Positions 1,005 through 16,001 of a stretch of DNA of 64,000 bases are shown here, piece by piece. The position numbers and the translations under genes are program-made. Source of the DNA: Sulfurimicrobium sp. GTDB taxonomy: Bacteria > Pseudomonadota > Gammaproteobacteria > Burkholderiales > Sulfuricellaceae. Numbering within the stretch: the stretch's first letter is position 1; the number at the start of each line of letters is the position of its first letter. Under the pieces are notes generated by a model. That model was not told where the DNA came from. It saw only the letters and a program-made list of their open reading frames with translations, and ran no database searches. The stretch lies in the NCBI GenBank assembly GCA_030652035.1, contig JAUSBJ010000035.1, forward strand, positions 310,001 to 374,000, read 5' to 3'.

Positions 1005-2963
1005 TCACGGGTCACAGGAAGGGCTCCGCTCATCGGGGTTCTGACAATCGTTTTTTGCATCCTTGCCTGCAATTGTCCCTAAGCGCTGTCTCAAAGGCAC
1101 GATTTGGCGTCCAAAGCGATTTGCATAATAACTGGCATTGCTCATTACCTTCTGCACATAGCCACGGGTTTCCGTGAAAGGAATGGATTCCGTGTAAATC
1201 GCCCCCTCCAGCGCTTTCTCATCCTTCCAGCGTCGGGCTCGCGACGGTCCGGCATTGTAGGAGGCAGTGGCGAGCACCGGCTGGCCATCATTGGTGTCGA
1301 GCACATATCTCAGATAGTACGTGCCAAAGGAAATATTGGTATCGATCTGGTTGACCAGACTCTGACGGAAGTGCTTCATACCCATCCGGCTGGCAATCCA
1401 CTTGGCTGTAGCCGGCATCAACTGCATCAGGCCGGAGGCACCCACACTTGAGCGCGCGTGCTGCACAAAACGGCTTTCCTGACGAATCAGGCCATATATC
1501 CACGCCTCATCCAGTTCATGCTCTCGGGCATAAGCCTGCATCAAATCACGATGAGGTGCAGGGTAACGCAAGCTGAAATCATGCCGGGCGCGGGTTTTGT
1601 CGGCGGTATTGATGGCGCGATCAAGCCAGTTGTTGCGCTTTGCCAGTTCAGCTGCCGCCAGCAGTTGCTCATCGCCGAAATTGCGGGTCGACCACAGCCA
1701 TTCCCGGTTTGCCTCGGTTCTCTGGTCGAGCCGATAAAGCGCCAGCGCACGTTGAATACCGCGGATTTCCCTGATTTCCCTGATTTCATCTTCACTGGGC
1801 TCATAAGTGGAGGCAGGGTTACTGACGACCGCACCCAGTTCTTCGAGCGACAATTGACCATAAAAATTATGCTCCAGCGACAGGGGCGCCAGAATGGCAT
1901 TGGCAGCCGTTTTGTTTCCGATGCTCTTGAGCCCACGCGCCTTCCAATAACGCCACGCCCCCTGACTCTGCATCTCCTCCGGCATCGCTGCGATCCCGGA
2001 CAACACCTGCTGCCAGTCTTGAATCCGCAATGCAGCACGAACGCGCCAAGTCAACTGGAGTTCATTCATGGGCGTATCACCGGCCTCGCGGAACCATTGC
2101 AGAGCAATGGGATCATGCTTGCGCGCAGCGTGGAAAGCCATCTGACCCCACACATAACGCTGTTCCTCAGGGCTGAACTGTGTGCGTATCCGATCCCAGT
2201 ATGTTAGCGCGCTCATTGGCTGACTGCGGGCCAGGCGATAGATGGCGAACATGGCCAGTTCGCGTTCAGGCCGACCTTGTAGAGCAGCACTCCCGACATC
2301 AAGGAAACGTTGCGGATTCTCAGCCACCTTTTCCACTTCTCTTAAACCGGATTTTTGCGCCTCAGGCAAATCCAGGGCCGCCTGACGCGCCACGCTGACA
2401 TTTCCCAACTCAAGGGCAAGGCGAATGCGCGACCAGACGTCCTCGGTTTTCAACTCGCCTGCGGCGGTCATGGCTTCGAATACCGGCCTGCACGCTGCGG
2501 CAGACTCTGTCCCGCTCAACCACTTGCGCCGCCCCTCCTGAAACACGCCCGGGTCGTTGCGCTGCATCCGAGCCTGCAAGGCGAAGCAGGAAAGCTCGGC
2601 ATCATCATTACCGTCCAGCAAGGGATACTCTTCCAGAAAGAGCGCCCATTTCTGCTGCTGCCCCAACATCTTGAGCCAGTCGGCACGCAGGCGATCCGCA
2701 AGGTAGGAACCCGCATTCGCCGCAATATATCCACGGACTTCTGAAGGGCTGGCTTCTTTAAGCCGCATCAGAAGTTTGTAATACTCCAGATAGGGCGCCA
2801 ACACGTGATGCTCGAGGCGTTTTGCCGCCAAATTCAGGCGCGCTGCATCCCCCTTGCGGAATGCGTCACGCGCAGAAAGGAATTCATCATCCGCGCTGCC
2901 TGCGGCAGCATTCGCAAGAGAAAACAGCAACATGAAGAAAAACAGAAAAATGGATTTGAACAT
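1005..2963 (-). CDS. slt: soluble lytic murein transglycosylase (Slt70-like)
   Basis: Cleaves the MurNAc-GlcNAc bond of peptidoglycan with formation of 1,6-anhydro-MurNAc, in the periplasm. The ORF-track start lies 25 codons upstream, but the ATG at 2963 begins a clear signal peptide (MFKSIFLFFFMLLFSLANA), so I place the start there (652 aa, normal for the family). A long alpha-helical N-terminal part (about residues 25-450) is the superhelical U-domain. The C-terminal goose-type SLT domain (about 470-620) carries RQESRF with the catalytic Glu, then GLMQLMPATA and ASYNAGP, all hallmark motifs. It lies just upstream of the epimerase gene on the same strand. No odd features. Confidence 0.92.
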   Translation of the reverse strand: MFKSIFLFFFMLLFSLANAAAGSADDEFLSARDAFRKGDAARLNLAAKRLEHHVLAPYLEYYKLLMRLKEASPSEVRGYIAANAGSYLADRLRADWLKMLGQQQKWALFLEEYPLLDGNDDAELSCFALQARMQRNDPGVFQEGRRKWLSGTESAAACRPVFEAMTAAGELKTEDVWSRIRLALELGNVSVARQAALDLPEAQKSGLREVEKVAENPQRFLDVGSAALQGRPERELAMFAIYRLARSQPMSALTYWDRIRTQFSPEEQRYVWGQMAFHAARKHDPIALQWFREAGDTPMNELQLTWRVRAALRIQDWQQVLSGIAAMPEEMQSQGAWRYWKARGLKSIGNKTAANAILAPLSLEHNFYGQLSLEELGAVVSNPASTYEPSEDEIREIREIRGIQRALALYRLDQRTEANREWLWSTRNFGDEQLLAAAELAKRNNWLDRAINTADKTRARHDFSLRYPAPHRDLMQAYAREHELDEAWIYGLIRQESRFVQHARSSVGASGLMQLMPATAKWIASRMGMKHFRQSLVNQIDTNISFGTYYLRYVLDTNDGQPVLATASYNAGPSRARRWKDEKALEGAIYTESIPFTETRGYVQKVMSNASYYANRFGRQIVPLRQRLGTIAGKDAKNDCQNPDERSPSCDP

Positions 2964-3093: not shown

Positions 3094-3260
3094 CTAGTGG
3101 TCTGCTTCGCAAATGCCGGAACATGAAAACGCGTCTTCCGGCCCCTGGCGGCGTTGCTCATCCTCGCAATAGGCGTGGCTATTGCTGCGGTTCGCGCCTT
3201 GCCACAGACCAGAATCCATCGTTTTCATCATGTTCCTTGATTTACGAAGCAGACCACTAG
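3094..3260. mobile_element. MITE-like inverted-repeat element, 167 bp, with CTAG ends
   Basis: Bases 3094-3109 (CTAGTGGTCTGCTTCG) are the exact reverse complement of 3245-3260. The similarity continues inward: both arms carry GGAACATG and AAAACG, with a few mismatches and one 3-base indel, so the arms are about 40 bp each. The centre contains a further small hairpin (GCAATAG...CTATTGC) and no ORF of substance. CTAG at each end could be a 4-bp target duplication of the YTAR type used by some IS5-family elements, or simply part of the repeat. The right-hand CTAG contains the queD stop codon. Calling it a mobile element is inference; the inverted repeat itself is directly visible. Confidence 0.65.
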
Positions 3261-3697
3261 CGCCTTGCATCCGCCCAGTTATTCGGGGTTTCATACAAGC
3301 GCACCTGCTCCAACCGAAGCTGGTTGGCATAACGATCGATATAGGCGGCATCAAGCAACTGAAATGCCACAGCAGCAAGATTTTCTGCTGTGGGCACCAC
3401 GTCCAGCACCACCGTCTTGTGCCCGGGCAATGTTGCCAGAAAAGCCACTACTTCAGCATCGCCCCGGTAGGCCAGAAAAGCATGATCCCACTGATTGACC
3501 ACCACTTCCTGAGCGATGGATTTGACCTCGGTAAAATCCATCACCATGCCCTGCTCGGATGCGCCCTCGGTAGCAATAATCTGCCCAGACAGGGTGATCT
3601 CTATTGCATAACGATGGCCATGAAGGTGGCGGCACTGACTGTTGTGGTTTGGGATACGGTGGCCGGCATCGAACTCCAGCCTGCGGGTAATCAGCAT
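3257..3697 (-). CDS. queD: 6-carboxy-5,6,7,8-tetrahydropterin synthase (QueD/PTPS family)
   Basis: QueD converts 7,8-dihydroneopterin triphosphate into 6-carboxytetrahydropterin, the second step towards queuosine and other deazapurines. The 146-aa protein has the PTPS zinc ligands: a His in FDAGHRI and the HLHGH pair. It also has MVMDFTEVK, WDHAFL with the catalytic Asp-His, and a C-terminal RLYETPNNWAD with the substrate-anchoring Glu. The ATG at 3697 is the only sensible start. The gene is divergent from a radical SAM gene with about 77 bp between them. Its stop codon TAG falls in the CTAG end of the adjacent inverted-repeat element, so the last two residues (RR) may be altered by the insertion; the catalytic fold is complete. 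Confidence 0.92.
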   Translation of the reverse strand: MLITRRLEFDAGHRIPNHNSQCRHLHGHRYAIEITLSGQIIATEGASEQGMVMDFTEVKSIAQEVVVNQWDHAFLAYRGDAEVVAFLATLPGHKTVVLDVVPTAENLAAVAFQLLDAAYIDRYANQLRLEQVRLYETPNNWADARR

Positions 3698-15756: not shown

Positions 15757-16001
15757 TTTAACCTAGAAACCTCAGTTGGACGTGGTGGAGGGTGCGGTTT
15801 TTGGGGTGCAGGGCAAGGCGCAATGACGCGGAATGGTCGTTCCATTCCAAGGAGTTGCAACGCAGCCATGCGCTCCAAAAACCGTGCAATCCACCACGTA
15901 GCAGCCTCACCAAATGGGTGAACCCATGATTAACGAAGAAATCATTAAATTCATTGCATTACGCACTCAATGGAGCGGTCAACTGGGGTTTCTAGGTTTA
16001 A
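15757..16001. mobile_element. MITE-like element with nested hairpins, about 240 bp
   Basis: Outer arms: 15760-15778 (AACCTAGAAACCTCAGTTG) and 15980-15998 are reverse complements with one mismatch. Nested inside, 15781-15804 and 15875-15898 pair at 20 of 24 positions (CGTGGTGGA...GGTTTTTGG). At the apex GGAATGG/CCATTCC forms a third stem. TTAA flanks both sides (15758-15761 and 15998-16001) and may be a target duplication, although CTAG also occurs symmetrically in the arms. The track ORF 15718-15921 over this element has no protein-like character. The whole 363-base gap from pstB to 16070 is otherwise only the pst terminator and a short leader. Confidence 0.65.

Follow-up and report, generated by a model that had tools for sequence, protein, structure and literature searches.

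MITEs are classified by their ends, and each is viewed as a shrunken copy of one transposon. Their ends usually match an autonomous transposon but need not, and to our knowledge Correia elements likewise lack a matching autonomous transposon. Correia elements (CREE/NEMIS) form hairpins that are cleaved by RNase III in Neisseria (PMC2649163, PMC2229807). The element described here, found in a window of 64,000 nucleotides (the whole stretch of Sulfurimicrobium sp. DNA that was analysed), resembles them as a small element with terminal inverted repeats (TIRs), a TA duplication and ends beginning TAGTGG. The Correia inner core GCGTTGC..CTGCGG-TTCG-CGCCTTG around a small hairpin may represent a further likeness. 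In contrast, Correia ends read TATAGTGGATTAA.. instead of TAGTGGTCTGCTTCG, the 26-bp Correia repeat tatagtggattaa.. is absent from the window element with TAGTGG alone in common, and Correia elements are 104-108 or 153-157 bp long compared with 165 bp here (PMC9778887).

YPAL or RU-2 of Yersinia is also a palindromic, non-coding mobile repeat of about 168 bp and is cotranscribed with upstream genes, but it lacks a terminal TA and has duplications of 3-26 bp and internal inverted repeats (PMC2229807), whereas the window element has TA and terminal repeats. ERIC, RUP and other TA-inserting bacterial MITEs share a size of about 100-200 bp, TIRs, a TA duplication and a long stem-loop with the window element (PMC2229807), but no sequence relation is seen and an exact stop-codon habit is unreported in the literature searched. 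BRE (beta-proteobacterial repeat elements) are non-coding repeats known from across the Betaproteobacteria, Azoarcus among them (Hot et al. 2011, PMC3110155); by description, the only basis on which they were compared, they differ in being 75-91 bp long and often arranged in tandem arrays (PMC3110155). The ISAzo13 family inserts at TA and has ends CTAAGG../TTAGGG.., ends of a kind that one double-core element of this genome also carries, but no examined ISAzo13 end matches those of the window element.

The element at the end of queD

An earlier note on this DNA had proposed an inverted-repeat element with 16-bp perfect ends at 3094-3260. The element is real: its arms (3094-3126 and 3228-3260) form an ungapped match of 33 nt at 88% complementarity, and it folds better than dinucleotide shuffles by 4.8 sd, none of 200 being as good. 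The perfect ends measure 16 bp when the flanking C and G of CTAG are counted and 15 bp (TAGTGGTCTGCTTCG) from the TA inwards. A length of 165 bp, a 15-bp perfect TIR, the lack of any gene within the element, a short target-site duplication (TA) and the existence of dispersed copies with filled and empty sites, with a single full copy in this genome, all correspond to a MITE. The window element is a MITE of a new family, BRE having been compared by description only, and its unusual part is the apex that it shares with other MITEs. None of 4227 Rfam models matches it, and a literature search, mostly without subscription journals, found no paper on a MITE family with TAGTGGTCTGCTTCG ends.

Table 1. 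Positions of the element, its parts and the neighbouring genes in the window.
Feature	Coordinates	Strand	Remarks
MITE	3095..3259	+	165 bp, TA to TA; 167 bp (3094-3260) counting flanking C and G; length and ends as in 59 elements of 161-166 bp
Left terminal inverted repeat TAGTGGTCTGCTTCG	3095..3109	+	15 bp, perfect
Right terminal inverted repeat TAGTGGTCTGCTTCG	3245..3259	-	15 bp, perfect
Duplicated target TA, left copy (target CTAG)	3095..3096	.	From flank and empty-site comparison
Duplicated target TA, right copy	3258..3259	.	Forms queD TAG with G3257 (element end)
Conserved apex hairpin GGCGGCGTTGCTCATCCTCGC-AATAG..CTATT-GCTGCGGTTCGCGCCTTGCC	3146..3204	+	R1 match 74.5 bits, E 3.5e-16; covariation; common to MITEs with other ends
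queD (6-carboxytetrahydropterin synthase-like, named from sequence)	3257..3697	-	146 aa, ends ..WADARR-TAG in element junction
queD stop codon TAG	3257..3259	-	Target TA plus the element's first base G
Gene next downstream of queD, soluble lytic transglycosylase-like	1005..2963	-	Named by motif reading

The queD stop codon lies inside the right-hand CTAG, as the earlier note had read it, but the suggestion that the element supplies this stop gives way on comparison with orthologues. The queD gene of a sister species (L260) lacks the element and has its ..WADARR-TAG end at the very codon where the window gene stops; the ATG of the next gene follows only 7 nt past this stop. A further orthologue from the same genus (L263) likewise ends in TAG. 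Re-joining the window flanks without the element yields ..GGCGC-TAG-ACCC... Since the re-joined flanks restore TAG and L260 ends with TAG at the same codon, the queD stop is, by sequence comparison, ancestral. The element-free orthologue also bears out the proposal that a mobile element inserted right at the 3' end of queD with frame and stop kept, the stop being preserved on insertion because the element starts with G.

Copies, target sites and the shared apex hairpin

This genome contains one full copy of the element and one isolated 16-bp end. The latter is located at G000:C33:82803-82818 (G000 being this genome), upstream of an enoyl-CoA hydratase-like gene; its partner end was not seen at this locus and it is possibly a relic. 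In a first search of 61 relatives, most matches lay in other genera and covered the central part of the element. Scanning GTDB genomes for the exact end identified at least 80 loci, those from related metagenome-assembled genomes being not fully independent, mainly in Rhodocyclales (Dechloromonas, Azonexus, Aromatoleum and Propionivibrio) and Formivibrio. About 60 of these loci are elements of 161-166 bp with near-identical ends and the same apex, and the nearest relative of the window copy (L252) is 92% identical. The element has thus been mobile and clearly neither lacks copies in relatives nor represents unique conserved DNA. The 165-bp consensus is conserved in three blocks, one at each end and one at the apex.

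The target of the family is YTAR, mostly CTAG. Among 52 scored targets, 20 read CTAG, 9 TTAG and 5 CTAA, with decayed ends explaining other readings. The flanks of the copies fit a duplication of TA. CTAG had been put forward as the duplicated target site, but TA alone is duplicated: the flanks of L018 (CTAG/CTAA) and L021 (TTAG/CTAG) fit TA only and a 4-bp CTAG duplication was rejected.

Landing in stop codons is general in the family and not peculiar to queD. Using gene ends from a home-made dicodon-score caller trained on the loci rather than curated annotation, empty-site scoring placed 23 of 52 sites in stop codons; the corresponding figure for control YTAR sites within these loci was 45 of 369 (p = 2e-7). 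Two of these 23 sites serve two genes at once. At filled loci, 33 of 64 genes with their 3' end facing the element stop exactly at the junction, a flanking gene ends exactly at the element junction in 29 of 52 scorable loci, and at L182, L252 and L256 both neighbouring genes do so. Elements of other end types are found in stop codons as well (15 of 49). With a naive longest-ORF caller the enrichment was not significant (p = 0.13) because its calls were dominated by long antisense ORFs, and the dicodon caller replaced it.

Selection acts on the folded structure of the apex. Standard pairs make up 96.8% of the paired cells in an alignment of 47 elements, and 121 cells changed on both sides compared with 35 in shuffles, none of 500 being as high; control structures slid along the alignment gave 3-34 two-sided changes. 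A covariance model of the ca. 58-nt apex hairpin (R1) was run on 399 genomes from the order, with 13 candidates scored per genome, and matches at least 109 of them. Under a more stringent threshold R1 matches 17 of 274 genomes drawn from the class, 15 of the 17 lying outside the order. In this genome it matches twelve places with several end types, some elements carrying two apices. Most single-apex elements are 160-168 bp long regardless of end type.

MITEs of 17 or more end types have the apex in common but not the ends. Over 17 end types, apex identity averages 0.71 with a minimum of 0.58, whereas the outer 45-nt arms average 0.51, the value after shuffling being 0.48; in 105 of 136 pairs the arms are no more alike than shuffled ones. 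We infer that the ends were either swapped or have diverged. A conserved, structurally selected apex amid unrelated ends contradicts the one-transposon picture of MITEs and suggests that the central part has a function.

The apex is probably related to the Correia core, as alignment of the two suggests without proving it. Only 2-8 of 5000 shuffles aligned as well, local alignment with one Correia element was marginal (9 of 1000), and R1 scores of about 13 bits on Correia cores are not convincing. If the link is true, a long-studied repeat of a human pathogen gains a wide environmental family in which to seek its mobiliser.

Proposed mechanism and alternatives

The explanation we favour, with a probability of about 0.87, is that of a non-coding MITE that inserts at TA within YTAR and rebuilds TAG, whose copies accumulate at stop codons and whose apex is shared among families. 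A DDE transposase encoded elsewhere, now or formerly, would recognise the TAGTGGTCTGCTTCG ends, move the element in trans and duplicate TA. Because the element starts with G, insertion into TAG rebuilds TAG at both junctions, and on either strand, CTAG being palindromic. Insertion into a stop codon therefore leaves the protein unchanged and copies accumulate there, some of them between convergent genes, both of which retain TAG. Such accumulation likely results from the CTAG/YTAR target preference combined with tolerance by selection, and active targeting of gene ends may be involved. Exact landing in stop codons illustrates a route for a transposon into dense bacterial genomes without protein cost.

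A transposase gene with matching terminal repeats, which the earlier note had recommended looking for, was found neither in this genome, nor at the at least 80 exact-end loci, nor in eight copy-bearing genomes. End pairs in the latter are all about 165 bp apart except for one of 206 bp. A single span of 1550 bp (L180) was considered as an insertion sequence with the same ends and rejected, one end carrying 4 mismatches and the ORFs inside being ordinary chromosomal ones; no other end pairs of ca. 1-2 kb occur among the exact-end loci. ISAzo13 transposases (PF07592) were rejected as partners, their ends CTAAGG..AAATAACTTG differing from those of the window element.

The stop-codon enrichment could be trivial, with CTAG being rare in coding DNA and genic insertions being purged without any targeting. 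The target is indeed mostly CTAG/YTAR and insertions within genes would do harm, but stop codons are over-used even relative to the intergenic YTAR sites (odds 4.4, p = 3e-5) or intergenic CTAG sites (odds 3.6, p = 0.003) of the same loci. Selection against promoter insertions could account for part of this excess over intergenic controls, and we rate a trivial origin slightly below even odds. The strong hairpin, the compensatory changes along the arms and the position at gene 3' ends would also suit a cis-regulatory 3' hairpin, either a terminator or an mRNA stabiliser, that is selected at gene ends and whose placement reflects function instead of insertion. This is unlikely given that no T-tract terminator is called at the window element, that the strand bias relative to genes (21 vs 12) is not significant, that the sister-species queD has no element, and that the remaining re-joined sites are intergenic (18 of 52) or called coding (11 of 52).

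Resemblance among apices might likewise be due to chance or convergence if any GC-rich imperfect hairpin looked alike. Hairpin apices form easily and some of the weaker matches are divergent, yet R1 E-values reach 1e-17 and both strands of asymmetric bulges are conserved over the 17 end types down to the minimum identity, which makes a chance origin very improbable. Under the favoured explanation of a mobile MITE with a shared apex, these elements most likely form one old superfamily whose members took on new ends as the parasitised transposases changed, or by exchange, and retained the apex because, we propose, they depend on it. The apex may act in transposition as a folded strand, or it may act as an RNA hairpin in the host transcript, whose 3' end it would protect or process; these roles are predicted and the orientation counts do not decide between them. 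A broader proposal is that the ca. 58-nt apex is a portable module, kept during end exchange or itself generating MITEs when adjacent IS ends are copied by fold-back. Numerous unnamed MITEs from Burkholderiales and other Gammaproteobacteria would then belong with the Neisseria Correia elements to one superfamily settling preferentially in stop codons. We regard this broader proposal as conceivable but rather doubtful.

Other apex-bearing elements

The window contains a second apex-bearing MITE of about 235 bp (15762-15996) with ends CCTAGAAACCTCAGTTG.., in which R1 matches 15811-15868 on the minus strand with 27 bits. This genome has three or more further elements with CCTAGAAACCTCAGTTG ends (L084, L085 and L087). 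Two elements about 270 bp long, each with a double apex and CCTAGTGTAGTGTTGCACGC ends, are located at the end of contig C37 (L088) and the start of contig C39 (L089) of G000; the two contigs have one flank in common and the other flank different, and the L089 copy adjoins the apparent TAG stop of an AcrB-like gene. Another double-apex element (L082, G000:C34:5302) carries the ISAzo13-like ends TTAGGGCTCGTTAATGAATAACTTGG mentioned above, with a similar one in the sister genome G004 (L024).

A MITE with different ends is nested at CTAG/CTA in a TAGTG-type element at L218 (2314-2739) and L227 (7555-7843). In genome G395, elements of 331-336 bp with ends TAGTGTAGTGYTTC (L143-L146) possess an apex enlarged by a long extra hairpin, and 193-bp forms without this extra hairpin are also observed (L147 and L148). 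A search of phage sequences gave no matches. An IMG/VR contig (L178) contains an apex-bearing element with ends CTAGGGATGGTCTGCACGAATC directly after an apparent TAG stop (..CTCAGCACCTAG). The apex is also found in unannotated DNA of Cupriavidus and Comamonas plasmids (NZ_AP025174.1, NZ_CP083452.1 and others), where the matches cover the apex only.
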